Positions 1 through 63,620 of a DNA stretch of 64,000 nt are shown one piece after another. Positions within the stretch are counted from its first letter, which is position 1. The number at the start of each line of letters is the position of its first letter. The translations under genes and the position numbers were made by a program. Below the pieces are notes generated by a model. The model was given only the letters and a program-made list of their open reading frames with translations. It searched no databases and was not told the origin of the DNA. The stretch is from Haliclystus octoradiatus (lineage: Eukaryota; Cnidaria; Staurozoa; Stauromedusae; Haliclystidae), in NCBI GenBank assembly GCA_916610825.1, contig OU744451.1, forward strand, positions 13,355,520 through 13,419,519, in the 5' to 3' direction.

Positions 1-149
1 GTTTTTAATTTTTAGTATCACCGTCTGAAGATCGCAATAAAAGCGTGAAACTCCGAGTTACGGAAAAGGCTTTGCCTCGTCTCTGTTTTATACTCTATAT
101 ATATATATATTAAAAATATTAAAAATTTATATTATAAAATATAAAAAAT

Positions 150-199
150 AAAATATTATATTATATAAGATATAATCATCGCTTAATATTATATATATA
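150..199. repeat. Left arm of AT-rich inverted repeat flanking the hammerhead array
   Basis: This arm is the reverse complement of 931-980 over about 50 bases with one or two mismatches, including the non-repetitive core ATAATCATCGCTTAATATT. The two arms enclose the 260-bp tandem array, so array and arms probably inserted or rearranged together. The extreme AT content makes exact ends uncertain. Bases 1-149 before it show no gene. Confidence 0.75.
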
Positions 200-359
200 T
201 ATATATATACTATTTGCATTATGCATTGCCCACTATTTCGGTAGTTTGAGCACTCTGGTATGGCACAGATGTTTTTTTCATGTGATGAATTTTTTCACCA
301 CATTTATAACTCATCTTGACTTAGGTGTATACTGAAGTCAGTTCCTTGTTCGCTCACTG

Positions 360-409
360 AGCAGTACTGATGAAGGCTAATGGCCAGAAACATGTACTTG
401 TCTGCTGCT
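360..409 (+). ncRNA. Hammerhead ribozyme, copy 1
   Basis: All invariant elements are present. Stem I pairs 360-366 (AGCAGTA) with 403-409 (TGCTGCT), seven pairs with one G-U. The core CTGATGA is at 367-373. Stem II is GGC/GCC (375-377 with 383-385) closed by a five-base loop. The second core box is GAAA at 387-390. Stem III is ACA/TGT (390-392 with 399-401). The predicted cleavage site follows C402 in the GTC triplet. The very short stem III closed by a loop is characteristic of Penelope and retrozyme hammerheads. I folded this by eye; no search was run. Confidence 0.88.
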
Positions 410-619
410 ATGTATGTCTCAATTGCGCATGCGCAATTTTGAGCACTATCGACTCGGGATGTGTCTATACTATTTGCATTATGCATTGCCCACAACTTTG
501 GTAGTTTGAGCACTCTGGTATGGCACAGATGTTTTTTTCATGTGATGAATTTTTTCACCACATTTATAACTCATCTTGACTTAGGTGTATATTGAAGTCA
601 GTTCCTTGTTCGCTCACTG

Positions 620-669
620 AGCAGTACTGATGAAGGCTAATGGCCAGAAACATGTACTTGTCTGCTGCT
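620..669 (+). ncRNA. Hammerhead ribozyme, copy 2
   Basis: This copy is identical in sequence to copy 1, exactly 260 bases downstream, with cleavage predicted after C662. Cleavage at copies 1 and 2 would release a 260-nt monomer (403-662). Confidence 0.88.
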
Positions 670-879
670 ATGTATGTCTCATTTGCGCATGCGCAATTTT
701 GAGCACTATCGACTCGGGATGTGTCTATACTATTTGCATTATGCATTGCCCACAACTTTGGTAGTTTGAGCACTCTGGTATGGCACAGATGTTTTTTTCA
801 TGTGATGAATTTTTTCACCACATTTATAACTCATCTTGACTTAGGTGTATATTGAAGTCAGTTCCTTGTTCGCTCACTG

Positions 880-929
880 AGCAGTACTGATGAAGGCTAA
901 TGGCCAGAAACATGTACTTGTCTGCTGCT
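880..929 (+). ncRNA. Hammerhead ribozyme, copy 3
   Basis: The third copy, another 260 bases on, retains the core boxes, stems II and III and all of stem I. The repeat ends directly after the stem I strand at 923-929, where the AT-rich inverted arm begins, so the ribozyme is intact although its unit is truncated. Confidence 0.87.
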
Positions 930-930
930 A

Positions 931-980
931 TATATATATAATATTAAGCGATGATTATATATTATATAATATAATATTTT
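931..980. repeat. Right arm of AT-rich inverted repeat
   Basis: Near-perfect reverse complement of 150-199, including AATATTAAGCGATGATTAT. The short word GCGATGATT recurs at the end of the arm, just where the Penelope-like coding remnant begins. Confidence 0.75.
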
Positions 981-984
981 AGCG

Positions 985-1560
985 ATGATTGACAAACACT
1001 TTCCGAAAGCCCATAGACTCCACAATATTTTTAATAGAAATAATGTTAGGGTATCTTACAGCTGCATGGGCAATGTCCAAACTATAATTAGAAGCCATAA
1101 TAATAAAACCCTAAGTGACAATAACAGCACTAAACCAAAAAAGACTTGCAACTGCCGCGACAAAGACAATTGCCCGTTGGACAACTAATGCCTATCCTCA
1201 AGGCTAGTTTACAAGGCCAACGTCACAACGGCACAGGACAGCATAGGCCAAAACTACATCGGTTTGTCTGAAAGCACCTTCAAGCAGCGCGCAGCCCAAC
1301 ATAAGATGTCCTTCAAAACAAAGAAATATGCAAACAGCACAGAATTATCGAAACACATTTGGAAGCTTAAAGAGAAGCATATCAATTACAAAATAAAATG
1401 AATAATACTAGCCATAGCGGCTGCCTACAGTAACAAAACTAAAAAATGTAATCTATGTCTAATGGAGAAATTCCACATAACTTATTATAAACGTTACAAT
1501 TTACTAAATAAAAGAACGTAACTCATTTCCAAGTGCGGACAGGAAAACAACTATTATTTA
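985..1560 (+). mobile_element. 5'-truncated Penelope-like element, GIY-YIG endonuclease end
   Basis: Frame 1 starts with a Penelope connector (IFNRNNVRVSYSCM) and a Cys cluster with CNC and CPL, then meets a TAA stop at 1186-1188. In the same frame, the reading continues with VYKA and NYIGLSESTFKQR, an H-x3-SF segment, and NSTELSKHIWKLK, which together are the GIY-YIG nuclease core with its YIG motif. Later stops at about 1399 and 1520 show decay. The reverse transcriptase part is missing. Same strand as the hammerheads, which in this class sit in pseudo-LTRs, so the array and this fragment are probably parts of one insertion. Confidence 0.8.
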
Positions 1561-8007: not shown

Positions 8008-8357
8008 ACCAGTATATTATTCAACATAAAAATAGAACCAATTTGTTAAGTGACCTTCTCGGGCTCCATTTCACAAAATCACGAAGGACAACATCATCTC
8101 TTTTCAATTATCATGGATTTGAGACCGTGCCAAGAGGCTTATTCAAAATTCCAGCAAATCGCAATATTTTGGATTTGATCCTGCTTCACTCTACTGTTTT
8201 TTTGCTACTGTTTGGCGTTTGCTGTTTGCCAAATTTTGCTACCTTATTCCTGAAGTGTCATTGCATTTTGTCCTCAATAGTGGCATTAATGATGTGAAAT
8301 ACTACTAGCAATTTATATCTTGACTCTGGCGTCAATTCTTAAATTTAAAGTTGTAAA
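8008..8357. promoter_or_regulatory. Divergent intergenic region MARCHF6 / DET1
   Basis: Only 350 bp separate the distal MARCHF6 start codon (-) from the DET1 start codon (+), so any 5' leaders and core promoters must lie here. No clear TATA box in a useful position and no CpG-rich core were seen. The role as a shared promoter is inferred from position alone. Confidence 0.4.
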
Positions 8358-11300
8358 ATGGATAGTGAATTTGGAGACATTCAAGCAAGAAAGATTGCAA
8401 ATCAAAACGTCTTACTCAAATTAATGAGACGAGAAACTGGCATCAGACAACGTGGAACACAGATGCATGTTGCTAAATCATTCAACCTTAATATATTTCC
8501 TAATTTTACTGTTGTGAACGTTGAAAAACCTCCTTGTTTTCTTCGGAAATTCGCTCCAGATGGTAGGCATTTCATTGCATTTTCTCGAGACCAGAGTTCT
8601 TTAGAGATATATGCATTTAAGGGACCGAGTGCTGCTGAAGAACTTCTAAGAAAATGCAATGATGGTAAAAAGAAGAGAAATAATACATCTGAAGTCCGGG
8701 CTCAATTATTTGATAAATTTTTTGAAAGAAAATCAATTGTTGCTGTTGCATGTAATGGTGAGCATCTAAACAGAGAATGCAGCTTATTCACTGACAATGG
8801 TCGTTATGTTATTGTTGGGTCAGCTGCTGTTATTCCAGATGAACCCTATCCTCCGTTCTTTGATATTTATAGGAATAATGAAGCTGTCACACCAAACCAG
8901 CGCTATCCATTAGAGGATTACACCATCCACATCATTGATCTGTACACTTGCAACCTAAAAGACTGTATTGAATTGAAGAGAGACAAGGTGTTTTTGTCTC
9001 ATAACCAAGGACTGTATTTATATAGAGATACGCTAGCAGTCCTCTCTGTTCAACATCAAACAGTTCATATTTATCAAGTAACTACAGACGGACATTTTGT
9101 AGAAATACGAGTTGTTGGTAGGTTTTGCTATGAGGACGATGAGTATGTATATAACAGTGTTAGAGAATACCAAGAACTAAGGTCCTTCCGTGAGGCTACA
9201 ATCAACAGTCTGAAGCATCGCATATTAGTTCATTTGTTTCGTTTCTCTAGTAAAGATTCTTCAAAAGAGGCGATTCGACGATTTTATCAGCACTTTGATC
9301 AATTTCGCCGTCTTCGTATGTGGAAGATGCAATTACTTGATGAAAACCATCTTCTTATCAAATATGCAAGCGAAGATGTTGTTACTTTGCGACATCAAGA
9401 TCCACATTCTCAGCCTTCATTCTTTGTAGTTTATAACATGTCAACAACTGAAGTAATTGGTGTCTATGAAAACAGCTCCGAGGAATTCTTAAGATACTTT
9501 GAAGAATTCTGTGACTCTTTCCGCAATGCTTTGCCAGCAGATCAAGCTCAGTTTACATGCTCGACTTCAAGTAACATCCATGCAAGACACAATCATCGCT
9601 GCTTTAAGCACACTATTATCAATGCCAAATATGGTGGTAATAGAGAAGCTGTGAAACGTTTATTAGCACAACTACCAATTAGTGCACAATCATATAGTAG
9701 CAGTCCTTATCTGGATCTGTCTTTGTTTAGTTATGATGACAAATGGGTATCTGTTATGGAAAGACCGAAGGCATGTGGGGATCATCCCATAAGGTGAGTC
9801 ATTGTGTCTCATTGCTCTATCATTGTTGCTTTTCTAACAAGCAAAACAATTGGATGATGCCAATGGAAGATTTGTTATACGACCAAATGATTACCAATCT
9901 TTTGGATAGTCTAATGGCAATCTTACCACAATTCTGTAATAGATCCTTCAACAATAGAATGCATCAATGCTAGATCATGTTAAAGGGCCTATGAAATGAA
10001 AAATCAATATTGGGTTTTTCACATACAGTGACATTATTTTGATTACAAAAATTAATCTAAATTTCTAATGTTAAAAATTGAGAAATGTGAAAATTAGGAA
10101 ATATCTGCACAAAACGTATCGCCAATGAATATGACAACAAAAATACTAATACAATTTCTCATACATAAATGTGCAATGTACAACAATTCTGGCGGCAATA
10201 TTTTTTATAATAAACCTGCTGACCATAAATTGCATTACCCGGGGTTTTTCTCGGGGGTGCAAACAAAAGTTGCAAAAGAAGACGAAACCCCTTCCTCCTA
10301 GGGCATCTATTTCTCAAAAATACTCAACTAATCTCCCTGGGAGCCTGGGGTTTTTTGTACTAATGTAGTATTTTATCTCCTTATTCCGATAGTGTGGGTA
10401 AATAAATTTTACGAATTTTTGATCCACCTATTTTGAACTCCAGAAAACAGGTATTTTTAACATTAAAAGGAGAAATTTTCGAGGTTAGATTATGCAAATG
10501 AAGCGTGTGACGTAATAGGTTGAAGGCTACACATGCAAATAACAGATAAGCAATAAGCATGAAGGAAGAAGTTAATCAATAGTTAATTGTAAGCAAATAT
10601 TACTTACTGTAAAGAGATGGTTCATTTTATGGAAACACTGGGTTAAATTCTTGTTAATCTTGACTTTGTGATTGGAATTATGGAATTACAGATGTGTACA
10701 ACCTATTATGTCATTAGTGCCCATGCCTATTTTTAAATTTGTGCAAAATATGTCATGTTTAAGGCAACAACGAAAATACATTTTACTTCAAATTTAAAAT
10801 TGTCAAAATCAAATATTACCATCGTCGGTCTACTAAGTTGAATAATGCAATTTTGCATCAATCCACCGGGTCCTTTTCATCTAATTAGTAGGCTATTATT
10901 CTCGCTACCAGTATATTAATAAAAACAAAGCTTTTGTATTTGCGGCACTTGTTCAACTAGAGGGGATGTTAACAATAGAAAATAGTTAGTTTTTAATTCT
11001 GAAGTTCTGAACGTCGACAATTTAACAAACTTTCACAGCAGATATAAATGCTCCTAGGAAATGAAAAATTAAACATTTTCTTAGTTGGTAAGCTGACTGT
11101 CTCCGAGTTTGACAAATTAGTACATTTGCAAGACTTTTGCACCCTCATTGGATGCTAAAAATTGAAAATACATGTACTTCGTTTTCAATTCTGAATTTTT
11201 GAACGTTAACAAACAAACCCCCATGCGACAGGAGATCCCCTGCAAGAAATAGTTCAGGAGTTCATGAACAGTTCATGAACGTTAAATGGCTTTAATTTTT

Positions 11301-12551: not shown

Positions 12552-14396
12552 TACATCACTTATTTCTTATTAATATTAACATTTTCAATTCATTAATTAT
12601 ATTAATTGTTCTCCATCATTTGTCCATGTATAGTCGAATGTTAAATGTCTAGTCTTTCCATTCAGACTTCCACCTAGCCTGCGCGCAGACCTACTATTTT
12701 CCTTTGTCAAGCGTAGGGTCTGTGAAACGCTGGCAGAATCTCAGTTCACGCTCCTGTGGTATAACAAAAAGCAGAAGACCAATTAGCTGCAATCGAATCG
12801 AATTCCTTTTATTAACTCAACCGATTTTCCTAGGCCATAAAGGACGGCGCCTTGGTTTCGTCGGGGAACTGCAATGTCATCCTGAACTGAGATTCTGTCA
12901 GCGTCTCGCAGACCCTACGATTGATGAAGGAAATTGTAACTATATAAAATTTTGAGTTCGTGATTCTATATTTGTCAAATAACTTTAACAGACAAATACA
13001 ATTTTATAAAATGTTAAAAGTGGAGGCATCGGAATGCGACAACTATAGGATGTCATCTCCTGAACGAGGCTCGGATGCTTCAACTATTTAAATTTTCAAC
13101 AAATCTTTAAATGCATTCATTAGTGAGCATTTACTCGTAAACCGCGTCCCCATTAGAGCAAAAATAACATCAAAATTATTTCTATTAATAGAAAACATGA
13201 AGATTGTATCCAGATTTGACTTAGTAGATTTTAGAAACATTCTGTCTGGTCTAAAATTATAAGAACAAATTAAGAACATCTCGAGGCTCATTTTAAGATT
13301 AAGAACAGGTTTTAAGAACATTCCGAGGCTCAAATAAAATAAAAAAAGAACTAGCTGAGCCTCTCTCAAAATTATAAAAATCCGGGTAGTACCTTTAGAC
13401 AGGTAGGGTATATATTTGTACTTGGGCTAAAATATATTGTTACACGAAAAAAATTGCTTTCGCAAAATCGTCCTATATTATATTATCAAACATTCACATT
13501 AGTCATATCCACGGTCATATATGGTTATTTGCTCAAACGAATACGTATAGTAGTTTTCATAATTTTTACAATACTATCATTAATGTGGCCTCAATCTGGC
13601 CAATCAATTATTAATTCAGTAATTATCATACTACTTTTCTCAGATACTCTTTGGATCACATTGTATGTTCAAATATGCCTATTGGTAATTATTGTCTTCT
13701 TTTTATAACAAATAACATCTACGCCAGCCTTATTTCCAGGCGCCAAAGTGCTTTATCATGCCTCTATTTTTCTCTACTTTTAATATGTTCTTCAAGAAAA
13801 CACAAAATGGTTTTTTCGCAAATATTTCTAGGTCAATCAAATCCCAACTGGATTAAAATAGTTATCCAAGCGGAGACTACGATAGATTATTCAAGGCATG
13901 GGTTATACGAGCAACTCGAACCTATAATTAGATTTATCTCCAATAAAATTATCCCTTGACAAATGAGAATCAGAATTTGGTATGTGGGGAACGTGAATTT
14001 CAAAACATTTCCTCCTTATACAGTTGTACCGATAGATAACTAAATGATCACTCAGGCAACGATTTCTGGCTAAACGTATAAAAACTGAATGAGATTATCT
14101 ATGCAATGTGATTTTTACTGAGGGACGCTAGATTTGCGATAGATAGCGTCTTGATCGATGTAACAATCAGGAAATTTAATGTATGTAAATAGATATTAAT
14201 ATGTTAGTAATATCATACTTACGTCGCCTTTGCTGTATTAAGAGTGCTCGATGCAGAGCTTTTAATAATAAATAAACGAAAAATCAGACATTCATATGGA
14301 GAAAAAAAGAAAAGAATGTGTAGTATGTGTGAATATATAAATAAATAGCTTCTCTTGATTCTTTAAATCTTAAAATTACAAATAAAAACAGCCCAT
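12552..14396. other. Convergent gap DET1 / APCDD1
   Basis: It holds the 3' untranslated regions, a MITE at 12698-12933 and AT-rich sequence. Two hydrophobic reading frames at 13454-13959 are not recognised and have no intron or codon signal to support them. Confidence 0.6.
12698..12933. mobile_element. MITE with 51-bp terminal inverted repeats
   Basis: The left arm 12698-12748 (with CGTAGGGTCTGTGAAACGCT, GGCAGAATCTCAGTTCA) is the inverse of 12883-12933 with about eight differences. The 134-bp centre is noncoding. It lies about 150 bp downstream of the DET1 stop, probably in its 3' untranslated region. Confidence 0.8.
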
Positions 14397-22384: not shown

Positions 22385-41984
<19,600 letters not shown>

Positions 41985-60625: not shown

Positions 60626-63620
60626 TGGTGCAAGAAGAGCTGATCGCAAAGACAAAAAACTTTGCCTGCACGATCCATCTCTTAAATGCAATTTATTCAA
60701 TGCTATTGAATACGCCAATGACAACAGGCGAGTTGTAGAAGAAGACAAGCAGTCGAGGCCCAGACACAACATTATACTGGATGAATTCAAAGATACTCTC
60801 TTTGAACTGCCAAATTCATTGCAGAATGCACAGCCCAGGAATGATGACAACAACAGTCATCACAACAAGCGGAACAAAAACCGCAACAACTCACATGGTA
60901 AACCAAAGCGTCTTGGGATGACAGGACCAAGATCACATTTACAAACCAAAAAACAATACACAAAAAATGACGATGACCAAACTGACAAAACTATTGACAA
61001 ACATGCAGACAAAATTGACAATACAAATGCTGACGAAAACGTTGACAGACCTGATGATAAAATAAAATCCACCACCACATCAAGCAACTCATTGAAAAAC
61101 ACCACCACCACAACCATGAGTAGCAGCAACAGCGACAACACTGTCAACACCAGCAGTACCAACAGCACCAATAGCAACGACAGCATACCAAATGGCCAAC
61201 GGAGCCCACAACACCAGGATGACCGCAGAAGTAGGAGCAGAAACACCAATGACATCAACAACAGAAGAAACAACAACAGAAGCAGTAGCAACAACAACAA
61301 CAACAACAGAAGCAGAAGCAACAACCACAACAACAACCACAGAAGCAGAAGCAACAACAACAGCAGCAGAGGCAGTAGTAACAACAGCAGCAGACGAGGC
61401 AGCCGTCAACATTACCGGTCGAACAACCATCAGGGTTATAACCATCAGGGTTATAGGCCTAACCACAGAGACGCTAGAGGCCGAAGCCACAACAGCAACG
61501 GCAAAAACAGGCAATCCAATCACAGGAGCTGACTGGGAAATTCACTGAAAAGCCTAGACAGCTTCTATTTCTATATAACAGGGCTAAGACCTGAAATAAA
61601 TAGCATGGTAACTAAACTAACCGATAAATTAACCATAGCTTCAATATTTCAAAATATAACAAATGAAAATTACATCACACAGTCTCCTAATTCACAGTCT
61701 CTCACAAGAGACCTCTTGCGCATGGGAATCCTAAAAGAAACTGTTGTCAATCTTAGCCACTTTGAGTTTACAAAAACCCAGATGCAGGTTTTATCTCTTG
61801 GTCCAAAGTACATACCTATTGACATAGGGGGACCAGACCCAATTGAGCTCACTAGACATCTAGATATCTTCAAACAGCGCATCAGACGCTCATATCGGCA
61901 ATGGGTAGACCGACATAAGCTACCTAACCAAGAATTAATACTGGTGAATCAGCTCTATAAGAAACTATACTTTAACAAGAGCAAATCTAAACAATCTAAG
62001 CAATCTAGTGGAAACAAAACCCTAGAAATTTACCTTTCTGAGCTCGATAACCATTTAGAATGTCTCTTGAAAATTGTACAGAAACAACACCAATCGACAA
62101 ATAACAATTCACGCATAATTCGGAAACTTGCCTCTCTTCGAAATACTCACGACTTGATCTTGAAAAGGGCAGATAAAGGAGGAGCACTGGTAGTCATGAA
62201 CAAAACAGATTATCTATCAAAATGCCTCAAACATCTTGACGACTTGCAAACATACCAACCATTGGGCCAAACGGACCCAAGCTCACGAATGAATACGTCT
62301 ATCGATCGCTTGCTAGATCGATTAGCTCGACAAGGTCTTATTGACGCGGCCACACGAAATGCACTGACCCTTCCAAGGGACACTCGTGCAAGCATTTTCT
62401 ACACACTGCCCAAGATACATAAAGCAGATGTACCAGGCAGGCCGATCGTTTCCAGTTGTAACTCACATACTGAGGGCCTATCCACATACGTCGATATTTA
62501 CAGCCACTGAGAAAACTAATCCGTTCTCACATTCGTGATTCATCTGATTTTCTTCAGAAAATCAAACATATCACAATTCCAGCAAATTCATTACTCGTCT
62601 CTCTTGACGTAGTCTCGCTGTACACGAATATCGACCGAAAACTTGGAATAGAGGCCGTGAAATCATTCATTTCAAAGCACAAACAGTCCTACACAGGACT
62701 ACCTGTCGATGCAGTCCTAGATAGCATTAACATGATACTATCTACAAATTACTTTCGTTTTGGACAGAACTTCTATCTGCAAATTTCAGGCACAGCAATG
62801 GGTACTCGATTCGCCCCCAGCTACGCCGATATTTATATGGCCGATGTCGAAGAACGCTTCTTAGACACACAAACAAAGAGACCGCTTTGTTTTTATCGTT
62901 ACCTTGACGATATATTCATGATCTGGCAACACCCTCAATCCGATCGATTTATTCGTCACGCATCTAAATCAGATCCATGAGAAACTGAAATTTACAGCTA
63001 GCATATCAACTACCAATATGCCGTTTCTAGACTTGAACATATATGTCTCATCAAATGCACTCCAATCTGACATATATATCAAACCAACAGATGCACACAA
63101 CATCGTATCGCTTGACTCATACCACAGTCCCGCCACTAAATGGGGCATTGTCAAGTCACAAACTAATCGATACCTAAATATCATTGCAGACTACACTTTC
63201 CGATTATATGTTCTCTACCTGCTGTTTGTGGCCAAAGGCTACCCCCACAAACAAGTACTTCAACTCATGCAGATAGCGTACCAAACACGCGGCCATGACA
63301 ACCGCCGCAAACCTAGAATAACACTAGAGAACTCGATTTTGATGACTGCACCATATCATCACTCTCTGAAACCCATATTCAATCACCTGTTTGAGACGAC
63401 CATCAAAACATTATTTTATACACATATGCAGTTCCATGATATGGAACCACACCTAACATTCAGCAGAAACAGAACTTAGGAGACGCTCTAATCAACACAT
63501 GTGATGGACCTAATGATGTTACGCTCTTGTAGAAATTGTTATCAGATAGCCTGTAACAATGATTAATTCAACATAATTCATTTAAGGGATCCTGCTGGGA
63601 ATTGGTATTAGTGCCTATGC
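60626..63620 (+). mobile_element. Penelope-like retroelement with Asn/Ser/Arg-rich leader frame
   Basis: The first frame (to 61532) is low complexity from about 60840, rich in N, S, T and R with repeated NNN and RSRS. RT frames follow, broken by frameshifts near 62495 and 62985. RT landmarks in order: LILKRADKGGALVVMN (62155-62205, the DKG motif shared by Penelope and telomerase), LPKIHK, GRPIVSS, LVSLDVVSLYTNI (motif A), GTAMGTRFAPSYADIYM (motif B), YRYLDDIFMIW (motif C, YLDD catalytic pair), MPFLDLNIY, and a thumb ending near 63478. No GIY-YIG endonuclease follows, so it is either an endonuclease-lacking type or 3' truncated. Boundaries are approximate. Confidence 0.8.

Follow-up and report, generated by a model that had tools for sequence, protein, structure and literature searches.

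A candidate non-autonomous retrozyme in a TA microsatellite of Haliclystus octoradiatus, probably moved in trans by a Penelope-like element enzyme

The window, by which the whole analysed stretch of 64,000 nucleotides of Haliclystus octoradiatus DNA is meant, carries close to its 5' end a head-to-tail array of a 260-bp unit with three copies of a hammerhead ribozyme (HHR) motif (Table 1). The array sits between two remnants of Penelope-like elements (PLEs), with microsatellite separating the PLE pieces from it, and is surrounded by an AT-rich inverted repeat, apparently a palindrome that received the insertion at its TA centre. Elsewhere in the window, DET1 is encoded at 8349-9797, with matches in many animal phyla at up to 72% identity among the best 120 of 751. 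A decayed PLE-type reverse transcriptase lies at 61533-63479 (RVT_1 at 62474-62977), related families of which have open frames of 664-815 aa in the genome, and Tandem Repeats Finder revealed (CA)55 and several longer tandem repeats at 29511-29620, 32800-33102, 34119-34308 and 61256-61455.

Table 1. Features of the array and its immediate surroundings (window positions unless stated otherwise; L numbers designate loci).
Feature	Position	Strand	Remarks
GIY-YIG-type coding region of upstream PLE copy	L069, 1882-2268		just upstream of the window
Minimal type I HHR of upstream PLE copy	21-63	+	55.4 bits with model R2, sequence included in the R2 training set; descriptor match at 25
3' "tail" of upstream PLE copy, then (TA)n	60-95	+	
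Left arm of inverted repeat around the array	149-201	+	53 nt, 98% complementary, AT-rich
Candidate retrozyme array	206-930	+	2.8 units of 260 bp, head-to-tail; 5' truncation near unit position 64; 3' end TGCTGCTA
Second hairpin, then TTGAGCACT	232-254	+	stem intact; copies at 492-514 and 752-774 each with one broken stem pair
Type I HHR, copy 1	360-409	+	predicted cleavage after C402
One complete unit	403-662	+	260 nt, as predicted double cleavage would release
First hairpin, TCTC[AATTGCG..CGCAATT]TTGAGCACT	417-447	+	analogous to PLE 5' hairpin; copy at 677-707 with one stem base changed
Type I HHR, copy 2	620-669	+	predicted cleavage after C662
Type I HHR, copy 3	880-929	+	predicted cleavage after C922
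3' junction TGCTGCTA into (TA)n	923-930	+	end point common to 38/43 arrays
Right arm of inverted repeat	929-981	+	53 nt
Decayed PLE GIY-YIG-type coding region, 3' of array	970-1398	+	pieces 970-1185 and 1189-1398, stop between

The three HHRs on one strand at exact 260-bp spacing, as described in the initial annotation, were confirmed by Tandem Repeats Finder (period 260, 2.8 copies, 98% match at 206-935) and by the positions of CTGATGA...GAAA with GGC/GCC at 367, 627 and 887 (+). The make-up given there was likewise found for the 7-bp stem I (AGCAGTA/TGCTGCT, structure read from the sequence), CTGATGA, the GGC/GCC stem II, GAAA, the 3-bp stem III (6-nt loop) and GTC; an A.A mismatch at the start of stem II, at positions that we take to be 10.1-11.1 in the usual numbering, had been overlooked, and this mismatch may weaken catalysis. 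Since 10 of 14 PLE HHRs have U.U at 10.1-11.1, a non-standard pair there is considered normal in this genome. The letters CUGAUGA, GAAA and GUC match what we take to be the type I hammerhead core, and the motif was assigned to type I by reading, stem I being the open one; with regard to the tertiary contacts between loop 1 and loop 2 of a canonical type I HHR, no clear internal loop was read in stem I. The core is complete in all three window copies and in 93 of 105 full units genome-wide, with 12 failing the core check.

A structural descriptor applied to both strands of the window returned the three retrozyme sites and one more HHR, that of the upstream PLE copy; in 60 dinucleotide-shuffled versions of the window it matched three times under loose limits and never under strict ones, the strict limits having been chosen with the retrozyme motif already in view. 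The model search proposed in the initial annotation came out negative, Rfam release 15 showing no hammerhead at the gathering threshold in the window and none at E ≤ 5 on 1-1700. This carries little weight, because at E ≤ 1 the same library also found no hammerhead in four loci (10,114 bases) that hold covarying PLE hammerheads. The PLE-HHR model R2 gave the retrozyme HHR only 8.1 bits in an unfiltered search of 901 bases and did not match it in the whole window up to E = 10; as a held-out test of the retrozyme HHR, this model failed. By energy, the isolated 58-nt motif folded into another structure, favoured over the HHR by about 2 kcal/mol and no better than shuffles (z = -0.50), and within the 260-nt circle the HHR fold was 1.2 kcal/mol above the minimum; these energies leave the tertiary core out of account. 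The circular fold of the unit, at -58.3 kcal/mol against -58.1 ± 4.5 for shuffles (z = -0.04), was well paired, not above chance.

The unit was found to be dispersed in the 262-Mb, 33-contig genome with at least 162 matches, a lower bound obtained from scoring 40 of 1095 first-look candidates, which disposes of the earlier reservation that further genomic copies might be lacking. Junctions and arrays were analysed at 39 loci from the matches listed, where 43 array segments have a median length of 2.65 units (range 0.38 to 11.65). The unit is 260 bp long with 40% GC and without a long open frame, the longest stop-free stretch in a trimer being 77 aa. Units of the same array diverged by a median of 0.4% versus 1.9% between arrays, and no substitution separated the units in 10 of the 29 arrays with more than one unit, among them L067 with its seven units; the diverged array L038 is the exception to this near-identity. 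Sites that vary within each of two arrays were few, nine being listed, and outside L038 only position 226 (L047, L052) had the same two letters. Because of the type I HHR, the 260-bp tandem unit, 40% GC, the lack of a long open reading frame, the dispersed copies and the presence of PLEs in the genome, retrozyme is the best class for this array, which would represent a new family of the animal non-LTR kind.

A common 3' end, ...ACTTGTC followed by TGCTGCTA, was revealed in 38 of the 43 arrays, 8 nt beyond the predicted cleavage site, with one base altered in L042 and one in L065; arrays without it were L046, L041, L044, L068 and the first array of L037. The exact sequence GTCTGCTGCTATATATATA occurred 158 times genome-wide versus 0 for the reversed control. 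Behind this end, the 38 arrays continue into (TA)n (25 arrays), (TAA/TTA)n (5 arrays) or shorter or interrupted AT-rich sequence (7 arrays), and at L043 the end is followed by a copy of a 13-bp target duplication, the one clear target-site duplication (TSD), as a TSD cannot be distinguished in microsatellite targets. The five arrays with a trinucleotide repeat on the 3' side all have the same repeat on the 5' side, from which it follows that the repeat predates the array.

The 5' ends are scattered unevenly over the unit, with starts at positions 1-7 over-represented. An exact internal junction one unit upstream was present in 24 of 86 tails (C1-C5, among 100 tails listed), implying that many retrozyme insertions are short or diverged. 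Among 37 TA-flanked arrays with a 5' end near position 1, nine start within one base of the predicted cleavage site, three of them read as letters and the others deduced from match length, compared with about one under a flat expectation; the count covers 49 of 78 match rows (shortest match per locus), the flat null is crude, and another 5' offset is shared by five loci. The cleavage-site starts are no more than suggestive; if this reading is right, they would be an in vivo trace of ribozyme cleavage, and some templates would have been partly cut multimers whose 5' end the ribozyme had produced. Taken together, the fixed 3' end, the ragged 5' ends and the near-identical units read, at the level of sequence, as the marks of a target-primed reverse transcription that starts internally and leaves 5'-truncated copies.

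The same features bear on the explanation that the array is a repeat of an ordinary kind, either a satellite or one nested in a microsatellite, that owes its spread to unequal crossing-over or to a DNA transposon, with the HHR as a functionless relic. The 53-nt inverted repeats flanking the window array would suit such an origin, as would the conservation of the HHR, which is not significantly above that of the rest of the unit (7/57 versus 43/203 variable columns, p = 0.18). Dispersed arrays sharing one fixed 3' end with ragged 5' ends are not accounted for in this way, nor are arrays of 7-8 near-identical units, and no terminal inverted repeat common to the arrays was seen by eye; the explanation is thus considered very improbable. 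The inverted repeat of the window array is not common to other arrays. A DNA transposon with terminal inverted repeats was rejected, given that the flanks of other arrays show, by eye, different inverted repeats or none; some of these repeats are AT-rich or part of neighbouring elements (by eye).

The assignment of the neighbouring elements to PLEs is based on the order of reverse transcriptase and GIY-YIG-type C-terminus in relatives, using motifs that we take to be those of the two domains; on the JGI name "predicted GIY-YIG superfamily endonuclease" of one among 120 relatives listed; and on a low-confidence structure model (pLDDT 71, pTM 0.41) with weak Foldseek matches, mainly to reverse transcriptases. 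For the PLE fragments and relatives tried, neither Pfam nor NCBIfam called GIY-YIG. P0129 and P0162, relatives of the PLE in L060, have the reverse transcriptase catalytic site YRDDG and were not detected by Pfam RVT_1.

In an alignment of 14 hand-picked flank instances (A3), from which the L042 variant and incomplete or alternative-register rows were left out, stems I and II of the PLE HHR covary, with 17 double-change cells versus 5.6 in shuffles (reached by 0/500). The covariation score was likewise reached by none of 500 shuffles, and one of the five alignment measures fell below the shuffles. In PLE-type copies the HHR lies some 240-380 bp behind the GIY-YIG-type match, and its cleavage site is found, by eye, 30-45 nt before a 3' end that enters (TA)n or (TAA)n. 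This geometry was tested on 300-base stretches taken blind at the predicted place behind two 722-aa open frames (L082/L083); both contained an HHR (53.7 bits) and a tail, one followed by (TA)n and the other running into the next unit, with only the place of the HHR being tested, because its sequence equals one of the training sequences.

PLE HHRs were detected in the flanks of 24 of the 39 retrozyme loci, that of the window included, and within 300 nt of 18 of the 43 arrays; 19 of 25 are oriented so that their 3' end points to the array. These counts comprise 57 of 63 rows (E below 1e-5, L080 left out) and were made with model R2, which was trained on HHRs from the same loci; the background is the window itself, where one other cluster was found in 64 kb. 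That cluster, at 38423-38717, has HHR matches on both strands, the first two head-to-head, and a weak PLE-hairpin match at 38542-38566. Genome-wide, 9 of 100 retrozyme tails listed lie within 3 kb of one of 150 PLE copies listed, the latter being taken from 1641 first-look candidates; random placement gave a mean of 0.32 and a maximum of 4.

Several observations concern the PLEs themselves. Among the 150 GIY-YIG-type places listed, 22 of 30 pairs no more than 5 kb apart are head-to-head with their 3' ends outward, at distances that mostly suggest 5' truncation of both copies; two of the 22 have identical spacing and probably go back to one duplication. Head-to-head is the usual PLE arrangement according to the available text on rotifer Penelope (PMC3846280), and the pairs found here fit an enzyme that cuts and extends both strands. 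At L080 (C1:13710700-13715300), another PLE family with an 814-aa open reading frame forms a near-perfect 2610-bp tandem that stops at (TAA)n. Behind it comes a palindrome of 208 bp, likewise near-perfect, with two HHRs in head-to-head orientation between (TAA)n tracts.

The internal 3' end just past the HHR in an AT-rich target, seen in 38 of 43 retrozyme arrays, was also observed in the PLE copies L051, L066, L069 and L082. For an anole PLE (Poseidon PAc; Frangieh 2024, PMC11167929), reverse transcription in vitro is described, in the text available, as starting inside the RNA past the HHR on AT-rich targets, with both strands cut and extended and with HHR cleavage not required for insertion. 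Alternatively, the same retrozyme might be moved by a LINE with a chance preference for AT repeats. The fixed 3' end, the variable 5' truncation and the 13-bp TSD fit target-primed reverse transcription of the LINE type too; the genome contains many other reverse transcriptases, and among the 150 RVT_1 matches listed it is common to find open frames of 1000-1300 aa. Nesting near PLEs could stem from a common target preference without a common enzyme. Against a LINE stand the position of the retrozyme 3' end just past a type I HHR as in PLEs, the use of the same microsatellites together with physical nesting, and the documentation of internal initiation for a PLE. We consider a LINE unlikely.

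A further link is provided by a hairpin motif. Where one PLE unit reaches its 3' end, the next follows directly and opens with GCTC[stem-loop]T(T/C)GAGC(A/C)CT. The hairpin covaries in 16 instances, with a score reached by 0/500 shuffles and two of five shuffle measures not extreme (40 and 72 of 500); the alignment (A2) holds 16 of 17 instances, L058 having been misaligned by MAFFT and left out. In the majority retrozyme unit, a first hairpin followed by TTGAGCACT begins 6 nt behind the unit's own 3' end and a second lies farther on, and the stem is perfect at two of the five TTGAGCACT sites in the window array. A covariance model trained on the PLE hairpins gave the first retrozyme hairpin only a marginal 12.7 bits (E = 0.39 in 64 kb, third of seven matches), and in 164 kb of loci it revealed six more retrozyme-type matches at E 0.55-0.98. 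The same model gave a 22.9-bit match without a loop at window 14243-14259 (-). Two hairpin-T(T/C)GAGC(A/C)CT sites occurred in 1 of 20000 shuffles of the majority unit, and at least one site in 25 of 20000; the former figure flatters the motif, because the descriptor was framed after the motif had been seen in both elements. The hairpin and TTGAGCACT shared by PLE units and retrozyme support the link between the two as a weaker line of evidence, and could constitute a putative binding site of the PLE protein or a promoter element.

The initial annotation had named retrozymes and Penelope pseudo-LTRs (pLTRs) as the possible classes. In favour of the unit being a pLTR that an autonomous PLE has left behind, in tandem or solo form, the HHR and hairpin-TTGAGCACT stand in the order that is seen at PLE unit junctions, and PLE remnants lie on both sides of the window array. 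In 38 of 43 arrays, however, the unit 3' end meets an AT-rich repeat or a target duplication and not coding sequence. A BLAST comparison of the unit with the 39 loci, PLE ends included, gave no PLE UTR match at E ≤ 0.01, and the retrozyme HHR falls outside the PLE-HHR family. This origin is therefore judged improbable: of the two classes named, retrozyme was retained, the arrays being unlike a Penelope pLTR while bearing Penelope-type insertion signatures.

We conclude that the array is probably a non-autonomous metazoan retrozyme, residing in a TA microsatellite beside PLE remnants and moved in trans by a PLE enzyme. In the proposed mechanism, arrays would be transcribed into multimers, the HHRs of which would cut after ...GUC to give 260-nt units or partly cut multimers, and a host ligase could close them. 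Animal retrozymes yield abundant small circular RNAs in other species. The protein of HHR-bearing PLEs, with its reverse transcriptase and GIY-YIG domains, would then recognise the RNA and cut AT-rich repeat DNA, and reverse transcription by this presumed enzyme would begin internally at about U7/A8, where the junction is observed, just beyond the cleavage site and not at the RNA 3' end. Synthesis would proceed in the upstream direction, covering a fraction of a unit or more than one unit before stopping at variable points, and the fixed 3' and ragged 5' ends seen in the arrays would be the products.

The 3' junction has sequence from both sides of an intact cleavage site, so that a fully cut linear monomer cannot have served as template, which leaves a circle or an incompletely cut multimer. 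The near-identity of units within arrays fits the copying of one molecule several times around, and where 7-8 such units lie in one array, a circle or another step that adds length is favoured. A more far-reaching reading, to which we give somewhat less than even credence, is that the retrozyme is a parasite of HHR-bearing PLEs that carries their RNA recognition signal, with rolling synthesis on a circle or partly cut multimer building the arrays in TA/TAA microsatellites. The signal would consist of the 3' HHR just upstream and the hairpin-UYGAGCACU module just downstream of the PLE start site. If true, this would identify the enzyme by which animal retrozymes are mobilised.

Metazoan non-LTR retrozymes have been described in coral, mussel and axolotl (Cervera & de la Pena 2020, PMC7229834), where, in the sections available, the mobilising enzyme is left open between LINE and PLE, with PLE as a strong candidate. 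In the portions available, a 2020 review (PMC7761336) states that retrozyme repeats show no motif revealing the autonomous partner, PLEs being likely candidates, and a 2024 review (PMC11722881) repeats the absence of such a motif and proposes that retrozymes are reduced PLEs. For the rotifer Penelope, pLTRs are described as having moved a host gene in trans (PMC3846280, available text). In the literature searched, which consisted mostly of titles and abstracts with few subscription papers, no paper on retrozyme insertion junctions was recognised. The junctions described here are direct evidence on the mobilising enzyme of animal retrozymes, which was only guessed before; they indicate that PLEs supply the machinery, as has been suggested in print, and make the role of PLEs testable with purified PLE protein, the 260-nt RNA and a TA-repeat target.

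With the metazoan non-LTR retrozymes, as characterised in the accessible text of PMC7229834, the present family shares the type I HHR with a short stem III, tandem units (150-450 bp there, 260 bp here), a GC content below 50%, the lack of a long open reading frame and the presence of PLEs in the same genome. A TSD longer than 4 bp, when present, is a trait given there, and the 13-bp TSD found here at one array agrees with it. The stem II base mismatch is U.U in the axolotl HHR_Amex2 and A.A here, and mussel retrozyme HHRs are without most of the loop 1-loop 2 contact nucleotides. Seen here and not described in that accessible text are a constant 3' end beyond the cleavage site, insertion into (TA)n/(TAA)n and nesting with PLEs. 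Highly self-paired circles are reported for metazoan retrozymes, whereas the predicted circle here is no more paired than shuffles.

Like the plant LTR retrozymes, as presented in the parts available of PMC7229834 and PMC7761336, the element is HHR-delimited and non-coding, and its movement is supposed to proceed via circular RNA. The plant elements are described there with a type III HHR, LTRs, PBS/PPT, a 4-bp TSD and units near 700 bp; unlike them, the present family has a type I HHR, a 260-bp unit, one 13-bp TSD and flanks that by eye are not LTRs.

HHR-bearing PLEs, as far as described in the available text of PMC11167929 and PMC3846280, share with the retrozyme the internal start of reverse transcription past the HHR, the AT-rich target, the tandem units and the 5' truncation, and the PLEs of this genome occupy the same microsatellites. 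The retrozyme differs from PLEs in that its unit is without an open reading frame and, in the loci read, resembles no PLE UTR at the nucleotide level, and from the PLE HHRs in its longer stem I, its different stem III loop and a tail of 8 nt as against 30-45 nt.
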